The notes beneath the pieces were generated by a model. It was not told the origin of the DNA and made no database searches. It was given only the letters and a program-made list of their open reading frames with translations. Positions 531 through 16,657 of a DNA stretch of 38,460 nt are shown piece after piece. The DNA comes from Sideroxydans sp. Lineage in GTDB: Bacteria > Pseudomonadota > Gammaproteobacteria > Burkholderiales > Gallionellaceae. How positions within the stretch are numbered: position 1 is the first letter of the stretch; the number at the start of each line of letters is the position of its first letter. The translations under genes and the position numbers were made by a program. The stretch is from contig PNNY01000006.1 in NCBI GenBank assembly GCA_013824485.1, positions 1 to 38,460 of the forward strand, in the 5' to 3' direction.

Positions 531-1029
531 GGTCTGGTCGAAATCTGATGTCCGAAAAAATAATTCTATGTGAAAACAGTCAAGTACTTGGCTATATGTA
601 GCGGAATTTCTTTGCATCTTAATAGTTCGAGAGTATCGTGCGCGTATTGATATATGAACGTGTGGGCGCAAAGGGTAATTGACGATTCATTGCCTGGTTA
701 GCAAAGTCGGAGACATGGGTCACTGATATAGCCGAACACAAAAAAGTATTCGTAACAGCAATAGATTCAAAATCTGAAAATGAATTTCGCGAGTCGGGCT
801 TTCAGCTTGGTGATTGGGGTAGTTTCAATCACATCTTCAAATACATCACTGGCAGCTCTGCCAGTTATTGATGTCGTCGGTAACAACTCGAATAGTCTTG
901 CTGTTGGCAAGATCGATAGTGCTTCGCGTCTTAAATACCTCAGCGGCAGAAAAATAATAAAAGTGCCTGACACCAGTGGCGATGTTGCGCTATGAGAATT
1001 CTCTTTACTTGAACCAAGGAGCATTAGAA

Positions 1030-1380
1030 ATGAAATCCATCATGACACGAAATAAAATCGGGGTAGCCGGAACACTCGTTGTAATTGCCTGCTTCCTCTC
1101 CGTTCCTGCATATGCAGTAGATGCGGCGGACGCCCAAGAGTTACTTGAGAAAAGCAAATGCTTGAAGTGTCACGATGTAGAGAAGACCAAAAAAGGCAAG
1201 GCGTACAAGAAGATCGCTGCCGACTATAAGTCCAATCCCAACGCCGTTGCCGCAATCACCAAACACGTCACCGAGCCGAGCCAAGTGAAGATCGAAGGTG
1301 AAATGGTGGATCACGGCGTTGTTAAAACGCGTGACAAGGCGCGCATTCAGAATCTGGTTGAGTGGATTCTTTCGCGCTGA
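1030..1380 (+). CDS. Periplasmic monoheme c-type cytochrome (class I / MtoD-like)
   Basis: Signal peptide MKSIMTRNKIGVAGTLVVIACFLSVPAYA, one CLKCH heme motif. Start at 1030 preferred over 976 because AAGGA precedes it. Confidence 0.85.
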   Translation: MKSIMTRNKIGVAGTLVVIACFLSVPAYAVDAADAQELLEKSKCLKCHDVEKTKKGKAYKKIAADYKSNPNAVAAITKHVTEPSQVKIEGEMVDHGVVKTRDKARIQNLVEWILSR

Positions 1381-1446
1381 TAGCAGATCGGGTCATGCTT
1401 CAAGTGGAGCTTGATCGAAATGAAGGTAAATAAAGGGAGTTTAGAA

Positions 1447-2328
1447 ATGAAAAAACTGATTGGAGCACTAGCCTTGATGCTAGGTGTAACTTTTGCCGGA
1501 CCGGCGCTATCTGCTGAGCCAGTCGAAGGATCTTCGATTGCACAACAGTGCGTGGGTTGTCACAAGGAGGAAGTCAAGACCCATGGCAATCACGCTTATC
1601 ACGGTGATTGCGCTAGCTGCCATGTGAAAGCGAATGACCACGCCAAGGCGGAAGAGGCGCGTGAGAATGCCAGCGCTGCCGATGCGCCACAGAGCATCAA
1701 GGCCGGTGTCCCAGAATCCAAGCAATGTTTGACCTGCCATGAATCGGACAAGAAGCGCATGCACTTCTCGATCGCCGAGCATAACAAGGCGGGTGTTCAA
1801 TGCACCGACTGCCACGGCAATCACACTCCCAAAGTTAAACAACTGAAAGCCTCGCAGGAAAAAGGCGGCAAGACCACGGCTTTGTGCGCTACCTGTCACC
1901 AAGACGTATTGGCGAAATTCAACATGCCTTCTCATCACCCTGTGAAAGAAGGTGGCGCAACCTGCACTGGCTGTCATGATCCACATGCTTCCAAACAAGC
2001 CACTCTCGGCGGCAAGAATGAAGTTTGTACCAAGTGCCACCAAGCAGTGCGTGGCCCTCATGTGTTTGAACACGCTCCCGTGGTCGAAGATTGCACGGCT
2101 TGTCACGACCCGCATGGTTCGCCCAACCGCAAGTTACTGACCGTCGCGCAACCCATGATTTGTTTGCAATGCCACTCGGTCGCCACAAATAGGCATGGTC
2201 AGCCTGCAGGTACTGCTAATGCTGCGACGAACAACACAGCGCGTATATCGGGCGCTGCTTTGCGCGATTGCGTTAGTTGCCACGGCGCGATCCATGGCAG
2301 TTCGATCGATCAGCACTTAAGACACTAA
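1447..2328 (+). CDS. Decaheme c-type cytochrome, MtrA/MtoA/DmsE family
   Basis: Signal peptide MKKLIGALALMLGVTFAGPALSA and 10 CXXCH motifs (CVGCH, CASCH, CLTCH, CTDCH, CATCH, CTGCH, CTKCH, CTACH, CLQCH, CVSCH). DmsE-type C-terminus CVSCHGAIHGS. Start at 1447 chosen for the signal peptide and the upstream GGGAG. Confidence 0.92.
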   Translation: MKKLIGALALMLGVTFAGPALSAEPVEGSSIAQQCVGCHKEEVKTHGNHAYHGDCASCHVKANDHAKAEEARENASAADAPQSIKAGVPESKQCLTCHESDKKRMHFSIAEHNKAGVQCTDCHGNHTPKVKQLKASQEKGGKTTALCATCHQDVLAKFNMPSHHPVKEGGATCTGCHDPHASKQATLGGKNEVCTKCHQAVRGPHVFEHAPVVEDCTACHDPHGSPNRKLLTVAQPMICLQCHSVATNRHGQPAGTANAATNNTARISGAALRDCVSCHGAIHGSSIDQHLRH

Positions 2329-2346
2329 GTTATTAAGGGGAAAATT

Positions 2347-4512
2347 GTGAAAACGAATACTCAAATCAAGTTTGTGCTGACGGCTTCAATCATGCTAGTT
2401 ATGTCGCCATCGCATGCCGAAGAAAATGCCCAAGCAGGGCTCATCTTTAGTGGCACCGTCACACCCAAGCTGTTTGTGATGGATCAATTGCAAGGTACAA
2501 GTAGCGCTCAATTCCTTGAACGCTACGATGCGCACAAAGGGGAAGGTAAAAGCGGGGCATATTTTGATGCAGATTTGAATGTGGTCGCCAACAATGGCAG
2601 TCGTAACATGCTGGAATTGGAGCGACAAGGTTTTGGTGTGCACAATCATCGAAGTGCATTGAAGGTTGACACCGATACCTTGGGAGCGACGGCTTACTAC
2701 ACCAACTTTAGAACAAGTACCGGGAGTTTAGGGTTTTTATATAACCCGAATCTGGTGGCGGGCGGCACAGATCCATTGTATTTCCCTGCTAGCAGCCTAA
2801 ATACAAATGATGGTTATGTCGCGCAATTCAATAATGACTCACCTGCACAAACCAGCTATAAAGTTGATCGCGCCACTTATGGGGCGGGCTTGGCATTGAA
2901 ACCGCAATTGACCGAGTTTAATGTAGCAGCTGCACTCAATTTCGATGGCTACGAGCGCAAGGGAAATCGCTTTGCAACTTATGTTGCGGGTGGGAGTGAT
3001 GTTGTTGCAGGCACTGCTGGCAATGCAAGAGCTCTGCAGCGTTGGCGTGGATACGATTCGCAAGTGAACGAGCAAATGAATCGCATGACGTTTAGTTTGA
3101 ATGGTTCACCCAGCGGGTTTGCGCTGGCTTATGAGGGCGTGTTGGAGAGATTCAACAATAAAGCACCGGATGTGTTGATGGGTGATTACTCGGCTAATTT
3201 TGCAGGCGCTACATTTAATAGTGCATCCGCAACCAAGCCCTTGCATTTTGTGCCAGACAGCACATTAATCTCGAATAACCTGCGCTTCGCAAAGAACTAC
3301 GGTAGCACAGCCGTCGCTGCGGGTTATGGTTTGTCGGTGCTTGATCAAGATTCATTCACCGCAAGACAGCAACTTGCAAGCTACAACGTTGGCAGGATAA
3401 CGACCAACAGTGGCTACCTGAATATCACTTCTAACGTGCTGAGTTTTGCGGGGCTGGAAGGCTTTGTCAAATACAACAACCGTGACAATGGTTCAACCTT
3501 TCCTGCCGTGGGATTGATCAATCCCGCAGCGGATCAGCAGTTGGGCGTTCGTATCAATCAGATTAATTCATTGAGCTACGGTGTAGCAGCAACATTCCGT
3601 CCAGACCTGCTGAAATCGTCGGTTGCCGTCGGGGTGAAGCGCGAAGACAAAGATCGTGACTTAACTTGGTCAAACCCAACTATTTTGCCAGCCTTTGGTT
3701 CAATTCAACCGCAACGTTCTTTGTATAAAGAGAAAACGGTTACAGATGAACTTTACGCAAATTGGGTAGCACGTCCTGCTGCAGGGGTTGTACTTCGCAT
3801 CAGTCCGTCTTACACCGCTGCCGCCAAGACTGGTCAGGTTACCGAGCCAGAAAAGGCGAGCAATTTGAAGACCAAGGTCAGCTACGTTACCAATAACGGT
3901 ATGTTGGTGGGCGGGTATTACAACTATAAAAACACTAAGAATGCCAATAATGAGTTGTTTAACAGTATCGCCAACAACGTAGCAACCACCTCAGTCACAC
4001 AAGATGTGACAAAGACACAGCAAGCCGCTGGGGGCACATTGAATTTGCCAGTGTCTGAGTGGATTAATATCAATGCAGGTTTGTCTTGGACGCAGGATGA
4101 TTTCGCCAGTTATTACTTGTCATCGGATCGCCGCCGTTTTGAGCAAGGCGTTACGAATGCAACCACACTCAACTTCTTGATCCGTGATCGTTCGAATTAC
4201 AAGGTTGATACCTACGTGATTATGTTGGGTGGAGATTGGCAAGTGAGTGACCCTATTGGGATCAATGCTGCGTATACCTTCACAAAATCTAAAGGGAATA
4301 CAGCAAGTGGTGTGATCCAGTCGGAGTTACCTACCGTTGATGGTGTAGTTGATAATGCGGTACATAGCCTGATTTTAGGTGGTGACTATGTACTGTCGAA
4401 AACGATCAAGATCAAGGGGGCTTATGTATATGAGCGTTATACCGATGACTCCTACACAACTTTGACGGGCTCGTATCATTCCGTGGTGGCGGGGGTCAGC
4501 GTCGGTTTCTAA
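2347..4512 (+). CDS. MtrB/PioB family outer-membrane beta-barrel porin partnering the decaheme cytochrome
   Basis: 721 aa, signal peptide ending SHA, alternating hydrophobic/polar strands, C-terminal Phe (GVSVGF). Directly downstream of the decaheme cytochrome. Confidence 0.85.
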   Translation: MKTNTQIKFVLTASIMLVMSPSHAEENAQAGLIFSGTVTPKLFVMDQLQGTSSAQFLERYDAHKGEGKSGAYFDADLNVVANNGSRNMLELERQGFGVHNHRSALKVDTDTLGATAYYTNFRTSTGSLGFLYNPNLVAGGTDPLYFPASSLNTNDGYVAQFNNDSPAQTSYKVDRATYGAGLALKPQLTEFNVAAALNFDGYERKGNRFATYVAGGSDVVAGTAGNARALQRWRGYDSQVNEQMNRMTFSLNGSPSGFALAYEGVLERFNNKAPDVLMGDYSANFAGATFNSASATKPLHFVPDSTLISNNLRFAKNYGSTAVAAGYGLSVLDQDSFTARQQLASYNVGRITTNSGYLNITSNVLSFAGLEGFVKYNNRDNGSTFPAVGLINPAADQQLGVRINQINSLSYGVAATFRPDLLKSSVAVGVKREDKDRDLTWSNPTILPAFGSIQPQRSLYKEKTVTDELYANWVARPAAGVVLRISPSYTAAAKTGQVTEPEKASNLKTKVSYVTNNGMLVGGYYNYKNTKNANNELFNSIANNVATTSVTQDVTKTQQAAGGTLNLPVSEWININAGLSWTQDDFASYYLSSDRRRFEQGVTNATTLNFLIRDRSNYKVDTYVIMLGGDWQVSDPIGINAAYTFTKSKGNTASGVIQSELPTVDGVVDNAVHSLILGGDYVLSKTIKIKGAYVYERYTDDSYTTLTGSYHSVVAGVSVGF

Positions 4513-4518
4513 TCTTGG

Positions 4519-4553
4519 CGTGGCGGCCGCCTGTTTTGCGTCCGCCACGTTTT
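4519..4553 (+). terminator. Stem-loop with short T tract between the porin and the cytochrome b fusion genes
   Basis: CGTGGCGG (4519-4526) / CCGCCACG (4542-4549) followed by TTTT. Confidence 0.6.
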
Positions 4554-4614
4554 AGTATTAATTGTCTAATTTAGGCGCGTTGAAGTTGACTGCCTTATTA
4601 GAGGGTCATCAATT

Positions 4615-6615
4615 ATGTTACAAAAAAAATTCAAGCAAGCCGCACTTATCCCAATCTTTCTTATGGTTGGGTTTTTTATTTTTAGCGCGGAAGCAAATGC
4701 AATTCCTGGCGATTCGTTGGCCGCCAAGAAGCTGGATAATGCAACTTGCCAAACATGCCATGACGGCAAGTCGGAATTGACTACAAAAGATGCGGATGGC
4801 GAGAAGCGTTCATTGCATGTTATTAATCCAGACAAATTTGGCAAGAGTGTGCATGCCAAGCTGGATTGTGTTTCCTGCCATACCTACATCAAGAACGACA
4901 AGGCACCGCATAAGAAAGCTGCGACAGACAAACTGCCGAGTTGCATCGAATGTCACACCGATTTGTGGGAAAAAGCCAAGGCAGAGGGATTGAGTGCCGA
5001 AAAGCCGCGCCTAGGGTTGGTGGTGGAGAACATCATTGGCTACGAGAAGTCGTACCATGCGCGCCCCAACGAGGACGAGCCGAATCGGCCGAATGCGACT
5101 TGCCACCAATGCCATAACACGCATGAATTCAATGTTCCATTACGTGACTCTCCGGAACGCGCACAGTGGCGCCTGACGACGCCCAAGGTGTGTGGTGAAA
5201 GCTGCCACAAGGAACAGCTCGAAGAGTTCGCTGGTTCAGTGCACGGCAAGGCGGTGTTGGAAAAGGGCGATGCCAAAGCAGCGGTATGTGTAGATTGTCA
5301 TAGCAGTCACGAGATCGGGGCGACAGCGTCGTCACAAGTCAGGCTAGCGATCACGGATAAATGCGGTGAATGCCACGAAGATAGCCTGAAGACCTATCGG
5401 GCTACCTATCACGGGCAGGTTGGCGCACTCGGCCATGCGTACACCGCCAAATGTTTTGATTGCCATGGTAGTCACGACGTGCGGAAGCTCGATGATCCGG
5501 ATTCGTTGATGAATCCAGAATACCGTCTGGAAACGTGCCAGAAATGTCACACCGACAAGAAGCCTGGTATGCGCACGGCGACGGAGGGTTTCGTTACCTT
5601 TGGCCCGCATGCACATGGTGGCGATTTCGAGAAGTATCCCGAGATGTGGATTGCGACCAAGGGTATGGTCGCGCTGCTGATCGGCGTATTTGCGTTCTTC
5701 TGGTTGCATTCCGGTCTTTGGTATTACCGCGAGTGGCAAGATCGCAAGGCTGGCAAAGCTCCTCCGCATATCGATACCAAGGGGCTGGTGCTCGACGAGA
5801 AAAAGCACTTCCAGCGCTTCCCTGTGGGGTGGCGTGTCGCCCATCTGGCTTTTGCGCTGATCACCATGACGCTGGTCTTGACCGGTACCAGTGCCTTGTT
5901 CTCTCACAGCACTTGGGCACCTATCGTGTCTGACTTCCTTGGCGGGCCAAGGACGATGGGCTTGATCCACCGTGTGGCGGCGGGGCTGTTTGTGGGCATC
6001 TTCTTGATCCACTTCGTCTATGTGATGCAAAAGCTGTTGCGCAGCAAAACGTTCCGCTGGTTCGGTCCGGATTCATTGATACCGAACTGGAAAGATCTCG
6101 CGGATTGTTGGGGCATGTTCAAGTGGTTCCTTGGCAAGGGGCCTCGGCCACGCTTTGATCGCTGGTCGTACTTCGAGAAGTTCGACTACTGGGCCGTTTT
6201 CTGGGGCGTGAATGTGATCGGTTGGAGCGGTCTGATGTTGGCTTTCCCACATGTCACGGCGAGCTATTTACCGGGATGGGTATTCAACGTGGCGACCTTG
6301 GTCCATGGCGAGGAAGCGTTCCTTGCTGCGGTATTCTTGTTCACGGTGCACTTCTTCAACAACCACTTCCGCCCTGACAAGTTGCCGCCGCCGGATATTG
6401 TGATGTTTACTGGGACACAGTCGCTAGAAGAGTTCCGCCATGATCATCCGGCGCAATATCAGCGTATGGTGGATTCTGGAGAACTGGAAAAGCATCTAGT
6501 GGATGCGCCGTCGACTGGGTTTGCGCGGAGTTCGAAGATATTGGGATTGATCTTGATTAGCGTTGGCCTAGTGCTACTGGCCTTGGTCATCAACGGATTT
6601 CTCGGGAGTTTCTAG
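4615..6615 (+). CDS. Inner-membrane multiheme cytochrome c / cytochrome b (b561/HydC/FdnI-like) fusion, CbcL-like quinone-linked oxidoreductase
   Basis: N-terminal signal/anchor, 8 CXXCH motifs plus one CGESCH (CX3CH), then several transmembrane helices with His residues typical of di-heme cytochrome b (VAHLAFALITMTLVLTG, GLIHRVAAGLFVGIFLIHF, VHFFNNHFRPDK). Confidence 0.85.
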   Translation: MLQKKFKQAALIPIFLMVGFFIFSAEANAIPGDSLAAKKLDNATCQTCHDGKSELTTKDADGEKRSLHVINPDKFGKSVHAKLDCVSCHTYIKNDKAPHKKAATDKLPSCIECHTDLWEKAKAEGLSAEKPRLGLVVENIIGYEKSYHARPNEDEPNRPNATCHQCHNTHEFNVPLRDSPERAQWRLTTPKVCGESCHKEQLEEFAGSVHGKAVLEKGDAKAAVCVDCHSSHEIGATASSQVRLAITDKCGECHEDSLKTYRATYHGQVGALGHAYTAKCFDCHGSHDVRKLDDPDSLMNPEYRLETCQKCHTDKKPGMRTATEGFVTFGPHAHGGDFEKYPEMWIATKGMVALLIGVFAFFWLHSGLWYYREWQDRKAGKAPPHIDTKGLVLDEKKHFQRFPVGWRVAHLAFALITMTLVLTGTSALFSHSTWAPIVSDFLGGPRTMGLIHRVAAGLFVGIFLIHFVYVMQKLLRSKTFRWFGPDSLIPNWKDLADCWGMFKWFLGKGPRPRFDRWSYFEKFDYWAVFWGVNVIGWSGLMLAFPHVTASYLPGWVFNVATLVHGEEAFLAAVFLFTVHFFNNHFRPDKLPPPDIVMFTGTQSLEEFRHDHPAQYQRMVDSGELEKHLVDAPSTGFARSSKILGLILISVGLVLLALVINGFLGSF

Positions 6616-7480: not shown

Positions 7481-8305
7481 ATGGCAAACCAACCCGAGAT
7501 CACCAACATGGCCCTGTTCTGCGATTTCGAGAACGTGGCGCTGGGCGTGCGTGATGCCAAGTACGCACAATTCGATATCAAGAAAGTGCTGGAACGCCTG
7601 CTGCTGAAAGGCGGCATTGTCGTCAAAAAAGCCTATTGCGACTGGGAGCGCTACAAAGAATTCAAGGCGACCATGCACGAGGCCGCGTTTGAATTAATCG
7701 AGATCCCGCACGTAAGACAAAGCGGCAAAAATTCCGCCGACATCCGCATGGTCGTCGATGCACTCGACCTTTGCTACACCAAAGCCCACATCGACACCTT
7801 CGTCATCATCAGTGGCGATTCCGATTTCTCACCGCTGGTTTCCAAGCTGCGCGAGAACAATAAATACGTCATCGGCATCGGAGTGAAAGATTCGACCTCA
7901 GATCTGCTGAGTGCCAACTGCGACGAATTCATCTTCTACGACGACCTCGTGCGCGTGCAAGAAGCCAAGAAGAAACAGGCCGCCAAGAAAGCGCCCGCCA
8001 AAGCGAAGGCTGAAATTTCGAAGCCGACTGCTGCGAAAAGCGAGGAAGACAAAAAACAAGAAGCCATGGATTTCCTCGTTGAGACGGTCGAGGGCCTCAT
8101 CTCCGAGCGCGGCTCGGACGAGAAACTCTGGGGCTCCATGGTCAAGCCCACCATGCAACGGCGCCGTCCCGGTTTCAACGAATCCTATTACGGCTATCGT
8201 TCCTTCCGTGAGCTGGTGGAAGATGCGCAGAAGCACAAGCTGGTCGTGCTGGTGAAGGATGAAAAGTCAGGGCAGTATACGATTCGGTTGTCGGTGACGG
8301 AGTAA
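7481..8305 (+). CDS. NYN domain (LabA/PIN-like) putative ribonuclease with C-terminal OST-HTH/LOTUS domain
   Basis: NYN signatures MALFCDFENVALG, DIRMVVDALDL, TFVIISGDSDFSPLVSKLRE; Lys/Ala linker; C-terminal LWGSMVKPTMQRRRPGFNESYYGYRSFRELVE typical of LOTUS. Confidence 0.88.
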   Translation: MANQPEITNMALFCDFENVALGVRDAKYAQFDIKKVLERLLLKGGIVVKKAYCDWERYKEFKATMHEAAFELIEIPHVRQSGKNSADIRMVVDALDLCYTKAHIDTFVIISGDSDFSPLVSKLRENNKYVIGIGVKDSTSDLLSANCDEFIFYDDLVRVQEAKKKQAAKKAPAKAKAEISKPTAAKSEEDKKQEAMDFLVETVEGLISERGSDEKLWGSMVKPTMQRRRPGFNESYYGYRSFRELVEDAQKHKLVVLVKDEKSGQYTIRLSVTE

Positions 8306-8958
8306 TGAAAAAGGAAGGTATCTCAAGATATAAGCTGCTTCGGATTGCAGCAGAATCACTTAGAAACTCCTTGCGATTGCATTTCGATTCTGTGTTTCTG
8401 TTTGAGAATGGATCGTATCCATCTGCTTTCCAGTTATCGGTGTTGTCTTTAGAGGAATTCGCAAAAGCTAAATGGATTGAGCATTATGTTTGGACGGCGG
8501 AAACCAACGAAGGTTACCCAGACCAAGAATTTGAGCAAAGTTGGTTGAAGCTGCTTTATCAGCATCCCGAAAAACAAATGGCATTTATAGGTAGAGAGAT
8601 ATTCGAATACTCACCCAAATTTGCGGCTTTCATCAAAAAGCGTGGGCTGGAAGAGAAGAAGCAACATTCTGTTTATGTAGGATTATCTAGGTTGAAGGGA
8701 GCGGTAGATACGACAAGCCGCATTTCAACACCGGCTAAAATCAAGAAAAAAGATGCAATGCAAATGATTTCCTTGGTTGGATCTGAGTTCCTTGAAATCT
8801 GCCAGCGAATAGAACTCGAAGAAAGCTATTTCAGTATTGAGCAAATGGACGAGATTTTTGATTACAAAATATATCGCAATTTGCTTAAGTGGCCGTATAG
8901 AACTGGACTTAAGTCCAAGCGATGGTCGAAGGTGTGGTTTGACCGAATAGGCGATTAA
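8305..8958 (+). CDS. AbiV-like HEPN-domain protein (putative abortive infection protein)
   Basis: N-terminal helical pattern with YPSAFQLSVLSLEEFAKAKWIEHY (AbiV/HEPN A..L..LSLEEFAKA) and KKQHSVYVGL. Start ATG overlaps the upstream TAA by 1 nt. Confidence 0.6.
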   Translation: MKKEGISRYKLLRIAAESLRNSLRLHFDSVFLFENGSYPSAFQLSVLSLEEFAKAKWIEHYVWTAETNEGYPDQEFEQSWLKLLYQHPEKQMAFIGREIFEYSPKFAAFIKKRGLEEKKQHSVYVGLSRLKGAVDTTSRISTPAKIKKKDAMQMISLVGSEFLEICQRIELEESYFSIEQMDEIFDYKIYRNLLKWPYRTGLKSKRWSKVWFDRIGD

Positions 8959-9097: not shown

Positions 9098-10774
9098 ATG
9101 TCCGCTGTCCTCAATTTCAAATCTCATTTAGCTGAATCTTTCGCGCACGCTTTGCGCGAGGTCGCACCTGATTTCGTCGGTGCGACCATTCTCATCGAGC
9201 GCCCCAAGCAAGCTTCGCATGGCGATTACGCTTGCAATCTGGCGATGCAGTTGGCGAAACCTTTGCGCAAATCACCGCGCGACATCGCCAACGCTTTGAT
9301 CGCCGCATTGCCGAAATCAGATGTGGTGGAAAAGGTGGAGATCGCGGGCGCGGGTTTCATCAATGTGTTCATCACTAAAGCAGCGAAACAAGAAGTGGTG
9401 CGCGGCGTATTGCAAGCGACAACTAACTTTGGTCGCGTCAATACGGGTGCGGGTAAGAAAGTGGGCGTGGAGTTCGTCTCAGCTAATCCAACAGGCCCGC
9501 TCCATGTGGGACACGGTCGTGGTGCAGCGGTGGGCGATTGTCTGTGTAGCGTGTTGGATGCCGCAGGCTGGGATGTGACGCGCGAGTTTTACTACAACGA
9601 TGCAGGTGTACAGATCGACAATCTCACTTTGTCGGTGCAACTGCGCTGCAAGGGTGTCACGCCTGACGATGCTTCTTGGCCAGAGTCCGGCTATCGCGGC
9701 GACTACATCGCTGATGTGGCGCGCGCTTATCTGGCGAAAGAGACCATCGTCTCTAGCGACCAGAACATCACAGGCAAAGGTGATGTGAACGATGCAGAAG
9801 CGATCCGTCATTTTGCTGTGGCCTATCTGCGCCGCGAACAAGATCTGGACCTGCGCGCGTTTGGTGTGGAGTTCGATGTGTTCTCTTTGGAGTCCGCGCT
9901 CTACACCGAAGGCAAAGTGGAAGCGACTGTACAGAAGCTCATCGCCAGCGGCCACACTTACGAACAAGAGGGCGCGCTATGGTTGCGCACCACTGACTTC
10001 GGCGACGACAAAGACCGCGTGATGCGCAAGACGGATGGCGGCTATACCTACTTCGTGCCAGACGTCGCCTACCATTTGGAAAAATGGAAACGCGGCTTCG
10101 TGCGCGTCATCAACGAGCAAGGTTCTGATCACCACAGCACCATCACGCGTGTACGCGCGGGTCTGCAAGCCTTGAACGAAGGTATCCCCAAAGGTTGGCC
10201 CGACTACGTGCTGCACCAGATGGTGACCGTGTTGAAGAACGGCGAAGAGGTGAAGATCTCCAAGCGGGCGGGTAGCTACGTCACCCTGCGTGATCTCATC
10301 GACGAGGTGGGGTGCGACGCGACGCGTTACTTCCTCGCTGCGCGCCATCCTGATTCGCAACTGGTGTTCGACATCGATCTGGCCAAATCGCAGAGCAACG
10401 ACAATCCCGTTTACTACATCCAATACGCACATGCGCGTATCAGCACCGTGTTGGGACAGTGGGGCGGTGAACACGCTGCGCTATTGAATGCCGACGTGAG
10501 CATCTTGGATAGCGAGTACGAGACAGCGTTGCTGCAACGTATGATCGATTACCCACAAGTGATTGAGACGGCGGCAGAAGACCTTGCGCCGCATCTGGTC
10601 GCCTTCTACCTCAAAGAGTTGGCGGCCGATTTCCACAGCTATTACAATGCTTCGCGCTTCTTGGTCGAGGACGAAAAGATCAAGCTGGCACGGTTGGCAT
10701 TGATCGCCGCCGTGGCGCAAACGATTAAGAATGGTTTGGCATTGTTGGGCGTCAGTGCGCCAGACAAGATGTAA
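9098..10774 (+). CDS. argS: Arginyl-tRNA synthetase
   Basis: Class I motif [52 protein letters not shown]-type C-terminus. Confidence 0.97.
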
Positions 10775-10792: not shown

Positions 10793-11389
10793 ATGGCTAA
10801 AGCAGGCAACACAGGTAGTGGCGGCGGGTCTCCTAAATCCAAGGTGATGGCAGGGCTGGTCGTTGGTGTCGTGCTAGGCGTTGCGTTCGCCGGCTTCGTC
10901 GCTTGGTACGTGCTGGCAAAGAATCCTGCCTCCTTCACTAATAAAGAACTGCGTGAGCCGCCAAAGGTGGTGCCGCAAGTAGTGCCGGCACCAGTGAGCG
11001 CCCCAGTCGCCGCTTCAAGCGTAGGCACAACCTCAAAATTCGAGTTCTACAAAGAGTTGCCAGACAAACCCGAAGGCAGTGCGACCAAGCAAGTGGTCAC
11101 CAAGCCGCAAGCACCGGTCGTCAACCCGCCAGCCAAAGCAGCCGTTGATAGCGCGCTGTATCTCGTCCAAGCAGGCTCATTTCAAAATGCTGACGATGCA
11201 GAGAAACTAAAAGCGAAGTTGGCACTCGTAGGCATGGAAGCCAGCGTGCAGAAAGCTGATATTCCAGGTAAGGGCGTGTTTCATCGTGTGCGTCTTGGTC
11301 CTTACAAAGGAATGACCGAAGCGAATGCGACCATCGCCAATTTGAAACAGAACGGCATCAGCAACGCCACTGCGTTGCATGCTCAGTGA
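10793..11389 (+). CDS. SPOR-domain membrane protein (FtsN-like)
   Basis: One N-terminal TM helix, Pro/Ala-rich linker, C-terminal SPOR repeat YLVQAGSFQNADDAEKLKAKLALVGMEASVQ...HRVRLGPYKGMTEANATIANLK. Confidence 0.85.
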   Translation: MAKAGNTGSGGGSPKSKVMAGLVVGVVLGVAFAGFVAWYVLAKNPASFTNKELREPPKVVPQVVPAPVSAPVAASSVGTTSKFEFYKELPDKPEGSATKQVVTKPQAPVVNPPAKAAVDSALYLVQAGSFQNADDAEKLKAKLALVGMEASVQKADIPGKGVFHRVRLGPYKGMTEANATIANLKQNGISNATALHAQ

Positions 11390-11405
11390 TCTACAGGAGA
11401 TAAGG

Positions 11406-12035
11406 ATGAAACTGTTTGCTAAGTTCTTCGCAGTCGTCGTGTTGTTGTTCGCCACACAGGCGCAAGCCGAAGTGGTCGCAGGCCGTGATTACAAATTACT
11501 GAATCCAGGACAGCCCACCAGTAGCGGTAGCAAAGTCGAAGTATTGGAGTTCTTCTTCTACGGCTGTTCGCATTGCTATCACCTGCACGGCCCATTGAGC
11601 AAATGGGAAGAGAAGCTGCCCAAAGATGTGAGCCTTCAAATGGTGCCTGTCATCTTCCGTGATTCATGGGAGCCGATGGCGCGCACTTTCTACGCGCTGG
11701 AATCCATCGGTCAGCGTGAGAAGTTGCACAACGATCTGTTCGAAGCATGGAACGTCTACAACACAGATTTGAGCGATGCAGGAAAGATCACTGACTTCGT
11801 GGCAAAGCGCGGCGTGGATAAATCGAAATTCACTGCGGCGTACAACTCTTTCTCTTTGCAAAGCAAAGTCGCACGTAGCAACCAGATGGTTCAAGCGTTC
11901 GGCATCCGTGGTACACCCACGATCGCCGTCGATGGTAAATACATCATCACGGGTCTTGAGCCAGCAGACACTATTCGCGTGCTGGACGAAGTCATCAAGA
12001 TTGCACGCAAGGAACGTCAAGCGAACAAGCACTGA
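11406..12035 (+). CDS. dsbA: Thiol:disulfide interchange protein DsbA family
   Basis: Signal peptide and thioredoxin-fold motif FFYGCSHCYHLHGPL; GIRGTPTIAVDGKYIITG. Start at 11406 follows AGGAGATAAGG. Confidence 0.9.
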   Translation: MKLFAKFFAVVVLLFATQAQAEVVAGRDYKLLNPGQPTSSGSKVEVLEFFFYGCSHCYHLHGPLSKWEEKLPKDVSLQMVPVIFRDSWEPMARTFYALESIGQREKLHNDLFEAWNVYNTDLSDAGKITDFVAKRGVDKSKFTAAYNSFSLQSKVARSNQMVQAFGIRGTPTIAVDGKYIITGLEPADTIRVLDEVIKIARKERQANKH

Positions 12036-12799
12036 TGCGTGTTGTTGTCAGTGGCGCGTCGAGTGGCATCGGTCTAGCCCTCACGCGCCATTATCTTGAG
12101 CGCGGCGCATCCGTCGCCGCCTTCGCCCGCCGTGGCGAACTGTTGCAAACCCTCGCTACTGAATTTCCAGATCAAGTCCATTGCTACACGCTCGATGTGC
12201 GTGACGCGTCTGCCATCCAACACGCCGCACAAGATTTTGTTCAGAAGGTCGGCGTGCCCGACATCGTCATCGCCAACGCAGGCGTGAGTGTCGGCACACT
12301 TACCGAAGATGCGGAAGACCTATACGCATTCAAGCAAGTGATGGACATCAACGTATTGGGCATGGTGCAGACCTTTCAACCTTTTGTGCATGCCATGACA
12401 CAAGCCAAGTGTGGAGCGCTCGTCGGCATCGCCAGTGTCGCAGGCTTCCGTGGCCTGCCCGGTGCTAGTGCCTACTCGGCGTCTAAGGCCGCCGCTATCT
12501 CTTATCTGGAATCATTGCGTGTCGAGTTGCGTGGCAGTGGAGTGAAGGTCGTCACCATCGCGCCGGGTTACATCAAGACGCCGATGACGGACATCAACCC
12601 CTATCCCATGCCCTTCATCCTCGCGCCAGAAGTGGCGGCGCAACGCATGGCGCGCGTCATCGAACGAGGTTGTTCGTTCGCCGTCGTGCCGTGGCAGATG
12701 GGTATCGTGGGTTGGGTGATGAGACGATTGCCGAATTGGCTGTATGACCGACTCTTCGCCAACGCGCCGCACAAGCCGCGCGGCTTACTGAAGAGATAG
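12035..12799 (+). CDS. Short-chain dehydrogenase/reductase (SDR) family oxidoreductase
   Basis: VVSGASSGIGLALTRHY, NAGVSVG, YSASKAA active site. Confidence 0.92.
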   Translation: MRVVVSGASSGIGLALTRHYLERGASVAAFARRGELLQTLATEFPDQVHCYTLDVRDASAIQHAAQDFVQKVGVPDIVIANAGVSVGTLTEDAEDLYAFKQVMDINVLGMVQTFQPFVHAMTQAKCGALVGIASVAGFRGLPGASAYSASKAAAISYLESLRVELRGSGVKVVTIAPGYIKTPMTDINPYPMPFILAPEVAAQRMARVIERGCSFAVVPWQMGIVGWVMRRLPNWLYDRLFANAPHKPRGLLKR

Positions 12800-12801
12800 C
12801 G

Positions 12802-13524
12802 ATGGCGATCTACAAACGATTCCAACACGGCGGCGTTCCGGAATATCTGGCGCGACATTATTGGTGGGCCTATCTGTGGCGCAGAAGCATCTGGTTCTTC
12901 GATCACCAGCCCATCATCAACGCCATCCTGTTCGGCCAATACGAGAAGTTGATGCAAAAGACGCTCGCCCATGTGGAGCGCAAATCTGGGGCGAAGCTAC
13001 TGCAACTTACTTGTGTCTACGGCAAGCTCACAACGTCGCTAGTGCATCACACCGATAATGAAGTACATCTATGTGATGTTGCGATAGGTCAGTTGGAATT
13101 GGCGCGCGGCAAGACGATGGATGTGGCAGATCGTTGTTTGCTCACACGCATGAATGCCGAATCGTTGGGTTACGCCAATGACTCGTTCGACCAAGTGATC
13201 CTGTTCTTCCTCTTCCACGAACTACCACCTGAAGCACGGCAAAATGTGTACGACGAGATCGCGCGCGTGGTGAAACGAGGTGGCTCGGTACTCATCACCG
13301 AATACGGCGATACTCCGCGCGGACACCTGTTGTATCGCTTCTGGCTCACGCGTTTCATCATTGGTTATCTAGAGCCTTTCCTGCCCGGATTCTGGCAGGA
13401 GGATGTGACGGGGAAATTGAGTTCTGCGTTACAACGCCAACGAAAAACGTTGGCGGATGAGCCACAAGTCGAACATTGCTTTGTGGATTTTTATCGAGTG
13501 ATGAGGTTCGATGTGAATCAATAA
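12802..13524 (+). CDS. rquA: Class I SAM methyltransferase resembling rhodoquinone biosynthesis protein RquA
   Basis: YLARHYWWAYLWRRSIWFFDHQPIINAILFGQY, LLQLTCVYGKL, VHLCDVAIGQLELARGK, ILFFLFHELPPEARQNVYDEI, GYLEPFLPGFWQEDV match the RquA layout as remembered (Y-WAYL, VLQ-CVYG, FFL-HE-P). Confidence 0.65.
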   Translation: MAIYKRFQHGGVPEYLARHYWWAYLWRRSIWFFDHQPIINAILFGQYEKLMQKTLAHVERKSGAKLLQLTCVYGKLTTSLVHHTDNEVHLCDVAIGQLELARGKTMDVADRCLLTRMNAESLGYANDSFDQVILFFLFHELPPEARQNVYDEIARVVKRGGSVLITEYGDTPRGHLLYRFWLTRFIIGYLEPFLPGFWQEDVTGKLSSALQRQRKTLADEPQVEHCFVDFYRVMRFDVNQ

Positions 13525-13542: not shown

Positions 13543-15096
13543 CTACTTGCTCACCGCTGCACTCACGATCTGTACCTGAAACAAAGACAATTCCTGTTCA
13601 GTCTTCACACGCACGCCGCTTACTTGAACATTCCCTTGTTGGTTCGGTGCGATGTTCGATGTGATGAGTAGAGGCTGAGTTTGAGCGACCACGCGACGCG
13701 TAGCTGCATCTAATTGCACGACACGCACTTGCACGTTGCTGACGGTCTCGGCAGTGGGGTTCTCCACCACGGCGTAGAGGTTGCCTCGGGTGTCGGCTTG
13801 CACGCCGCTCAATAGATATTTTCCGGGATTCTTAGGTAAATCTAGGCGCGTGAACTTGGCGGCGGCGAATTGTCCTGCGCTGGAATCTGAGCCTGCTGCC
13901 GCGCCGTAATTCTGCATCGCTGCGTTGATGTCGCCGCGTGACTCGGCCAGTATGCCAAGCAGTGCATGAGCGGGTGCGGTGGGCAGTAGAGAAGTGCTTT
14001 TACTGAGCGCCACTTCGGCTTCGGGATTGCGTCCCAGATTCTTCAGCGCGATGCCGCTTTGTAAATGTGGACGGAAATAATCAGGTTGCATCTGAATGGC
14101 GCGTTCGTAGAAGGGCAGTGCGGCAGCGCTGTTCTTTTGTGTGAGGGAGATGTCGCCCAATAGCTCTTGGAAGCGTGCTTCGCGCGGCTCACCAGCAACC
14201 GCCTTCTTCGCAAGCGTGGTGGCTTTGGTGGTGTCGCCAGTGCTCAGTGCGATGACGCCTTGATCATAAGCGCTGTATGCGGGTCGAGTCGCTTTCAACT
14301 TCCCCACTTTTTTCGCATACACCTCGCGTCCCCATTCACCGCCTTCGCCTAATTCAGCGAGGGTGACTTTGTTGGCGGCGACACGTTCGGGAGAGGGCGG
14401 ATGGCTGGCGAACAAACCTGAGATGAAGTCAGATTGCTTTCCTTCGCTCAATCGAACGAAAGTCTCTTGCAAGGTGACGGCGGCACGTGGATCGTAACCC
14501 GCTCGCTTCATGTAGATCATGCCGTACTTGTCAGATTCAGATTCGGCATCGCGGCCAAATTTGGTGGAGATGAGTTGTGAGCTAAGTTGCGCTGCTCCCA
14601 CGGCCAGATTGGCGTAGCTCTTGTCTTGCGTGTAGATGCCGGTGGCGAGCACCGCACCTTGCAACAACATGCCCGATTCCATGCCTTTTGCGCCGTGACG
14701 CGCCGCAGCATGCACGATCTCATGGCTCAACACGGCAGCGAGTTCTGCCTCACTGTTCAATTCGTACAACAAGCCGCGATTGAAGGCGATCTTGCCGCCG
14801 GGCATCGCCCATGCGTTGGGCACGGAGTCATTCAGTACGACGAATTCATAAGGAAGTTTGCGGTCGGCCACGGCGGCGAGTTTGTTGCCCACACTTTGCA
14901 CGTAGGCGGTCAGCTCGGGGTCGATGATGTAGTCGCCGCCTTGTTGTTGGCGGGCGGGTGCGTAGTTCTGTTGGCCTATCGAGATCTCTTGCGATTCAGA
15001 AACTAACTGTAGCTCGCGCTTGCCAGTGACAGGATTGGTGCCGCAGGCGCTCAGCAATAAAGAAGTGATTACGACTACAAGAATAGAACGCAACAT
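13543..15096 (-). CDS. M48 family zinc metalloprotease lipoprotein with TPR repeats (BepA/YfgC-like)
   Basis: Lipobox LLLSACG, HExxH motif SHEIVHAAARHG, GRDAESESDKYGMIYM, C-terminal TPR-like repeats. Confidence 0.9.
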   Translation of the reverse strand: MLRSILVVVITSLLLSACGTNPVTGKRELQLVSESQEISIGQQNYAPARQQQGGDYIIDPELTAYVQSVGNKLAAVADRKLPYEFVVLNDSVPNAWAMPGGKIAFNRGLLYELNSEAELAAVLSHEIVHAAARHGAKGMESGMLLQGAVLATGIYTQDKSYANLAVGAAQLSSQLISTKFGRDAESESDKYGMIYMKRAGYDPRAAVTLQETFVRLSEGKQSDFISGLFASHPPSPERVAANKVTLAELGEGGEWGREVYAKKVGKLKATRPAYSAYDQGVIALSTGDTTKATTLAKKAVAGEPREARFQELLGDISLTQKNSAAALPFYERAIQMQPDYFRPHLQSGIALKNLGRNPEAEVALSKSTSLLPTAPAHALLGILAESRGDINAAMQNYGAAAGSDSSAGQFAAAKFTRLDLPKNPGKYLLSGVQADTRGNLYAVVENPTAETVSNVQVRVVQLDAATRRVVAQTQPLLITSNIAPNQQGNVQVSGVRVKTEQELSLFQVQIVSAAVSK

Positions 15097-15136: not shown

Positions 15137-16657
15137 CTAACCTGCCAGTTTCTTCTTCAGCACCTCGTTCAGCTGCGCCGGATTGGCTTTGCCTTGGCTT
15201 GCCTTCATGGCCGCGCCGACGAAGAAACCGAACAGCTTGTCTTTGCCGCTACGGTATTCAGCCACTTTGTCTGCATTGGCTGCGATGACGCCATCCACGA
15301 TCGCTTCGATCGCGCCGCTATCGGAGACTTGCTTCAGACCTTTCGCCTCGATAATGGCGTCAGCTTCACCACCCTCTGCCCACATCGTGCGGAACACTTC
15401 TTTCGCACCTGAGTTAGAGATGGTGCCGTCGGCGATGCGCGTCAGCATGCCGCCTAGTTGTTGTGCAGTGATTGGGCATTGCGCTATATCCAAGCCATCT
15501 CGGTTCAACTGGGCGCTGACTTCGCCGCTGATCCAGTTGGCTACAAGTTTGGCGGCAAATTGGCCTGCATGAGCTTCCGCTGAAGGAGTTTCTGGGGAGG
15601 TAAGAATGCCAACCCCCTGTGACAACAGGTGCTTCACAACACCCTCAAATAAATCAGCCGTTTCTCGCGAAGATGTCAGAACGGCGGCGTCGCTTGGCGA
15701 TAAAGCATAATTGGAAACATAACGCGCCTGCTTGGCGTGTGGCAATTCTGGTAGCGTCGCACGCACCTGCTCCTTCCACTCTTCGCTGATCTCCAGCGGC
15801 AACAGATCAGGATCGGGGAAATAGCGATAGTCGTGCGCGTCCTCTTTGCTGCGCATCGCACGTGTCTCGCCCGTATCAGGATTGAACAGGATGGTGGCTT
15901 GGTGCACTTTGCCACCATTTTCAATCGTGTCGATCTGCCATTGCACTTCGTAGTCGATGGCTTGTTGCATGAACTTGAACGAGTTCAGGTTCTTGATCTC
16001 GCGGCGTGTGCCCAGCGGCTGGCCGGGCTTGCGCACCGACACGTTCACGTCGCAGCGGAACGAACCTTCTTGCATGTTGCCGTCGCAGATACCGATCCAG
16101 CGCACCAGTGTGTGTAGGGCTTTGGCATAGGCCACCGCTTCTGCAGCGGAGCACATGTCTGGCTCGGAGACGATCTCAAGTAACGGTGTGCCAGCGCGGT
16201 TCAAATCCACGCCCGTCACACCTTGTGATTCGCCATGTACGGATTTGCCCGCGTCCTCTTCCAAGTGCGCGCGTGTGATACGTACGGTCTTCTCGTAAGG
16301 TTTTGCATTACCCGAAAGCGGTTCGACTTGGATAGTCAAAGCGCCTTGGCCGACTACCGGCAGATCGAACTGGCTGATCTGGTAGCCCTTGGGAAGGTCG
16401 GGGTAGAAGTAGTTCTTGCGTGCGAAAACCGAGCGCGGCGCGATGTGTGCGCCCGTCGCCAAGCCGAACTTGATAGCGCGTTCTACTGCACCTTTGTTCA
16501 GCACTGGCAACACACCCGGCAAGGCCAAGCTCACGGCATCCGCTTGTGTGTTCGGTTCCGCGCCGAACGCAGTCGATGCGCCGGAGAAGATTTTAGTGTT
16601 GGTCGAGAGCTGGGTGTGTACTTCCAGTCCGATGACGATTTCCCAAGTCATGTTCAA
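15137..16657 (-). CDS. gatB: Aspartyl/glutamyl-tRNA(Asn/Gln) amidotransferase subunit B
   Basis: [58 protein letters not shown]-terminal YqeY-like domain. Confidence 0.97.

Follow-up and report, generated by a model that had tools for sequence, protein, structure and literature searches.

RquA converts ubiquinone into rhodoquinone, an electron carrier of low potential. Two groups of RquA, A and B, have been distinguished, and both are treated as RquA (PMC5953543). The enzyme uses SAM as the amino donor and requires Mn2+, with Fe2+ giving low activity, and a D118A/D143A double mutant abolishes the synthesis of rhodoquinone (RQ) (PMC9814641). In 73 of 84 genomes, canonical rquA has been shown to co-occur with the O2-independent ubiquinone (UQ) pathway (PMC11707229). 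The presence of RquA serves as a marker for inferring rhodoquinone from genomes. An RquA-like sequence is no guarantee of activity, however, since one rquA from GWC2-55-46 yielded no RQ in E. coli (PMC13386864).

In the window, by which we mean the whole stretch of 38,460 nucleotides analysed here, from a Sideroxydans-like Gallionellaceae MAG, we found an intact open reading frame with an ATG start on the plus strand (12802-13524), which encodes an RquA-like SAM-dependent protein of 240 aa. The frame begins two bases past the stop codon of an SDR oxidoreductase gene (12035-12799, plus strand), whose product scores 393.8 bits on PRK07024, above the curated cut-off of 266. As proposed in the preliminary description, the RquA-like gene closes a tightly packed run, and the neighbours were confirmed by sequence and profile matches. 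The run comprises argS for arginyl-tRNA synthetase (9098-10774), which is syntenic in relatives, followed by genes for a SPOR/FtsN-like protein (10793-11389) and a DsbA-like thiol:disulfide interchange protein (11379-12035), all on the plus strand, and the SDR gene. On the other side lie, on the minus strand, a convergent gene for an M48-type peptidase with TPR-like repeats, recognised by sequence (13543-15096), and gatB (15137-16657). Upstream of the run, an AbiV-family abortive-infection (HEPN) protein is encoded at 8305-8958 (plus strand; 78.7 bits on Pfam, cut-off 27.1), between an NYN-domain gene and argS.

The top NCBIfam family of the protein is NF038261, the NCBI equivalog model for the rhodoquinone biosynthesis protein RquA. 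The score of 163.5 bits (E 6e-48) is just below the curated cut-off of 175 bits; the second-best family reached 50.9 bits, and Pfam recognised generic methyltransferase domains only. In a sample of 300 genomes of the order, canonical RquA scored 270-322 bits on the same model, the family of the window's protein 158-176 and UbiE-like proteins at most 60, while two scores near 175 came, as judged by coordinates, from a split copy and a partial copy. At one locus (L051, G137 contig 25: 104570-105222), a canonical RquA lies in two overlapping frames of 104 and 175 bits, which suggests a frameshift or an assembly error. The same grouping was repeated in a sample of 398 genomes of the phylum, with a single intermediate of 225 bits that, judged by its motifs, looks like a divergent RquA of group A. 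The 163.5 bits of the window's protein are far more than chance would give, as the genome's own UbiE reaches about 50, but fall short of the 270-322 of canonical RquA; the protein is therefore not just a generic methyltransferase, nor is it a canonical RquA. A canonical model built here gave 286-390 bits for canonical sequences, 154-193 for the clade and at most 50 for UbiE. In profile-profile comparisons the clade matched canonical RquA with E 3e-55 over 234 columns and UbiE with E 5e-15 over 131 columns. Membership in UbiE/MenG was rejected: the protein reaches 41.7 bits on TIGR01934, where the cut-off is 158, and its motif I carries no acidic residue.

Across the clade, which we call group C, scores on NF038261 range from 155 to 186, so that the cut-off of 175 runs through it; many proteins of Mariprofundaceae pass (177-186), whereas those of Gallionellaceae mostly fail (158-176). 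Automated naming will therefore be inconsistent, with some members called RquA and others not, and we found no biochemical basis for this division. A cut-off that splits a clade could also mean that the window's protein is an ordinary canonical RquA, narrowly missed by a strict HMM threshold. We consider this very improbable, because the scores are sharply bimodal (155-186 versus 270-322, with the lone 225-bit protein reading as group A) and the tree separates the two sets with full support.

Judged from its sequence, the protein belongs to a well-separated third branch of RquA, with at least 80 members, beside groups A and B. A scan of named genomes gave 137 relatives, 80 of which were kept for analysis. 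In the tree, about 1.9 substitutions per site lie between group C and canonical RquA (support 100/100), and an earlier quick tree likewise splits the two. The UbiE outgroup, whose branch exceeds 5-8 substitutions per site, lies too far away to place the root, so that group C may also nest inside RquA; a grouping of C with A was not rejected (p-AU 0.31). Mean identities are 31.5% between the clade and group A, 25.2% between the clade and group B and 34.4% between A and B, where the labels A and B were set from tree and motifs and not from the sequences of PMC5953543; each of the three is about 20% identical to UbiE. Because these mean identities are similar, we named the clade group C, a sister of a depth comparable to the A-B split. 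Group C is apparently undescribed so far, although PMC11707229 or PMC13386864 may already list some of its members as RquA. The preliminary description had called the protein RquA-like. This wording stands, as the SAM-site changes are present and RquA is the nearest characterized family, but the stronger claim that it is RquA proper is weakened: the protein falls outside the canonical clade and under the cut-off, and RquA-conserved positions are altered throughout its clade.

Carriers of group C are found in the Gallionellaceae (Sideroxydans, Gallionella, Ferrigenium), in the Zetaproteobacteria (Mariprofundus, Ghiorsea and others), in vent Gammaproteobacteria, in Ectothiorhodospiraceae and in a few Alphaproteobacteria; the titles of some carrier MAGs (Polaromonas, Emcibacter) may reflect binning errors. 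Many carriers come from lineages that are known to oxidize iron at neutral pH. Of the 74 genomes in the family of Mariprofundus sp. KV, 30 have the RquA-like gene and none has a canonical RquA. A universal presence in Mariprofundaceae was rejected on this family-wide count. One genome of the Mariprofundus family (L176: 5213-5983, G474) has two RquA-like copies, one of them beside multiheme cytochrome and cytochrome b-like genes. Our literature search gave nothing on rhodoquinone in Gallionella or on respiratory quinones in Gallionellaceae, and no quinone measurement for any carrier of group C. The part of the literature on rhodoquinone and Zetaproteobacteria that was accessible held no report of RquA in Zetaproteobacteria.

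We defined conserved positions as those that are the same in at least 80% of canonical RquA sequences. By alignment, the window's protein retains 33 of these 59 positions, among them Q68, Y73, G74, D92, Q97, K104, H139, E140, Y168, E191, P192 and Y231, all of which except P192 are invariant or nearly so across the clade. The YWWAY and LEPF motifs are kept as well. In motif I (residues 67-74, LQLTCVYG, 13000-13023), the acidic residue is replaced by Gln68, and GxG by VYG, as in canonical RquA; Q68, Y73 and G74 are invariant throughout group C. Asp92 (13075-13077) corresponds to R. rubrum D118, which contacts the SAM ribose (PMC9814641), and is invariant in all groups; Asn118 (13153-13155) corresponds to D143, and 77 of the 80 clade members have Asn there. 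Both equivalences were mapped via the distance of 25 residues between D118 and D143 in canonical sequences, as the R. rubrum sequence itself lies outside the alignment. Canonical group A has Asp or Asn at this position. Since three of its nine rows carry Asn, the change need not be disqualifying. Residues 135-140 (FFLFHE, 13204-13221) include the pair His139-Glu140, which all 80 clade rows and all 22 canonical rows share and which is R/N in UbiE; this pair may form a metal site. All of these codons lie on the plus strand, as do those of Glu167-Tyr168 (13300-13305), which replace the canonical Asp-Tyr-[His/Ser]. About a dozen RquA-wide positions are altered across the clade, including A70T, V166T, D167E, A194L, L197F, Q232R and the loss of P95. 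Moreover, H/S169 became A or G, P171 was lost, and D75 became K, S or E; at the level of motifs, DYHxP is changed to EY[A/G] and YQ to YR.

Substitutions at sites where both canonical groups are fixed, including those after motifs II and post-II, together with a preserved SAM-site signature and fold, would fit altered pocket residues that have shifted the substrate or the regiochemistry. The protein would then still modify quinones but form a product other than RQ, for instance a different aminoquinone or a UQ that is demethylated or altered in some other way, or it would act on a UQ precursor. We regard this as rather unlikely: no product or partner gene is known, YWWAY, D118 and the His-Glu pair are all preserved, and the divergence from group A only slightly exceeds that between A and B.

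An AlphaFold model based on 40 clade members reached a pLDDT of 89 and a pTM of 0.88, and replaced an earlier model from 6 sequences (pLDDT 68). Among solved structures, the new model is closest to SAM-bound yeast Coq5 (TM-score 0.67), an enzyme of the ubiquinone pathway. The match of the predicted fold is compatible with a quinone substrate but does not prove it. It also bears on the idea that the protein is a SAM-dependent enzyme outside quinone metabolism, for instance a methyltransferase for another lipid or metabolite, which kept its RquA-like SAM site by descent. The neighbours in Gallionellaceae (argS, SPOR, dsbA, SDR and gat genes) have no quinone link, and the locus of the vent Gammaproteobacteria includes a gene that is CFA-synthase-like by sequence, both of which would suit such an enzyme. 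Nevertheless, we find it improbable, as the acidic residue of the methyltransferase motif I is replaced in every member, as in RquA, no association with a non-quinone pathway is consistent across lineages, and Coq5 is the closest structure.

The host possesses genes for ubiquinone synthesis, with UbiA, UbiE and two UbiH-type hydroxylases over their cut-offs; the UbiE is a separate, bona fide one (418.9 bits, cut-off 378). Among 34 genomes of the genus, no MenD was over the cut-off and MqnA was not found; the window's own genome is about 90% complete. A MenA-like prenyltransferase is encoded between ruvC and ruvA on contig 20 of the window's own genome (L136, 1408-2358); it is under all MenA cut-offs and is possibly an orphan or specific for a different substrate. 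Neither UbiU nor UbiV was found in this genome, whose two PF01136 matches (of about 447 and 650 aa) are unlike the UbiU/UbiV-like pair of relatives. The absence of an anaerobic UQ pathway is no bar to the RquA reaction, because purified RquA is active under air (PMC9814641).

Genomes of the genus either have or lack the RquA-like gene at one exact place, between the SDR gene and gatB. In carriers it directly follows the SDR gene, which marks a conserved site of insertion, and is followed by the convergent gatB or, as in the window, by the M48 gene first. In several non-carriers gatB directly abuts the SDR gene, with the two matches 9-18 bp apart (L182, L185, L187, L188). Carriers fall into two groups of the SDR tree; therefore, at least two changes are needed. 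The gene ubiU occurs in one of 14 carriers and in 14 of 20 non-carriers, or, among high-quality genomes, in none of nine and in 10 of 12, respectively. A PorC-type gamma subunit of 2-oxoacid oxidoreductase shows the reverse, with eight of nine high-quality carriers versus one of 12 non-carriers. Although Fisher tests were strong for both, the negative and the positive association each reduce to two independent contrasts, and hence we do not take the co-occurrence as proof. That most carriers have no ubiTUV, the opposite of canonical RquA, would also agree with the formation of a product other than RQ.

In vent Gammaproteobacteria, the RquA-like gene is commonly followed by genes for a CxxCH membrane protein, subunits of a 2-oxoacid:ferredoxin oxidoreductase, a GltD-like protein and malate dehydrogenase. 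Genes for ferredoxin-dependent 2-oxoacid oxidoreductases are also near in Gallionella STB_51 (L082) and in an alphaproteobacterium (L119), although the arrangements differ. These neighbours point to low-potential metabolism. The CxxCH protein represents a conserved membrane protein family of about 255 aa with one heme motif and no Pfam or NCBIfam match; in vent Gammaproteobacteria (L100, L103-L106, L108, L109, L114, L115, L125, L127-L129), its genes lie close to the RquA-like gene or immediately behind it, and in one Sideroxydans (L067: 204-974) about 6 kb upstream of it.

An extracellular electron transfer island lies at 976-6615 (plus strand) of the window. It encodes a mono-heme cytochrome, an MtrA-like decaheme protein (10 CxxCH), a porin-sized protein of 721 aa and a cytochrome with 8 CxxCH, and the contig starts with a partial cytochrome b-like (CbcL-like) frame. 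Of the CbcL-like/MtrAB island described before, the MtrA-like decaheme, the porin-sized frame and the multiheme cytochromes are present at 1411-6615, upstream of the RquA-like gene. Pfam (E <= 1e-4) confirmed the cytochromes but left the porin-sized and the partial CbcL-like frames unnamed. Any link between the RquA-like gene and this MtrAB-like island is speculation from their adjacency in one window and contig.

Overall, that the protein works like RquA remains the best explanation, and we put the probability that it performs the RquA reaction at roughly 0.55. Sequence kinship, the RquA signature, the predicted fold, the UQ genes beside undetected MenD and MqnA, and the genomic context underlie this reading. 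Against it stand the score below the cut-off, the long and fully supported branch, the clade-wide changes and the near-absence of ubiU in carriers. As an enzyme of the RquA superfamily, the protein would bind SAM, probably associate with the membrane and modify quinones. Ubiquinone from the host's UbiA/UbiE/UbiH-type pathway would be the substrate, and a ring methoxy group would be swapped for the amino group of SAM with the help of a divalent metal. The product, rhodoquinone, would give the quinone pool a low-potential branch in a host for which no menaquinone pathway was found. Tentatively, vent Gammaproteobacteria and the neutrophilic Fe(II) oxidizers of the Gallionellaceae and Mariprofundaceae, at least some of them without a menaquinone pathway, may owe to this third lineage a low-potential pool of a rhodoquinone-like or new aminoquinone. 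If true, the uphill flow of electrons in the carriers, and their metabolism linked to fumarate or ferredoxin, would have to be redrawn. Should group C make rhodoquinone, current models of the respiratory chains of many likely iron oxidizers lack a low-potential quinone; should it make none, several genome-based rhodoquinone inferences would be wrong.

Compared with the known systems, the protein resembles RquA of groups A and B (R. rubrum RquA, NF038261) in its length, in the class I SAM fold and in the N-terminal YWWAY, which is the group A form. Moreover, it shares the Gln for the motif I Asp, VYG, D118, FFLxHE, LEPF and a C-terminal F-x-x-[FLV]-Y. It differs from both groups in an identity of only about 25-31%, a separate clade, Asn for D143, EY[A/G] instead of DYHxP, YR instead of YQ, a short extra stretch ahead of residue 180 and a score under the curated one. 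Unlike published canonical rquA, the group C gene is mostly found without ubiTUV in this genus. With the ubiquinone C-methyltransferase UbiE/Coq5, the protein has in common the class I SAM fold and the D118 equivalent, but the identity is about 19-20%, and UbiE/Coq5 is devoid of Gln68, VYG, the His-Glu pair and the N-terminal helix motif.
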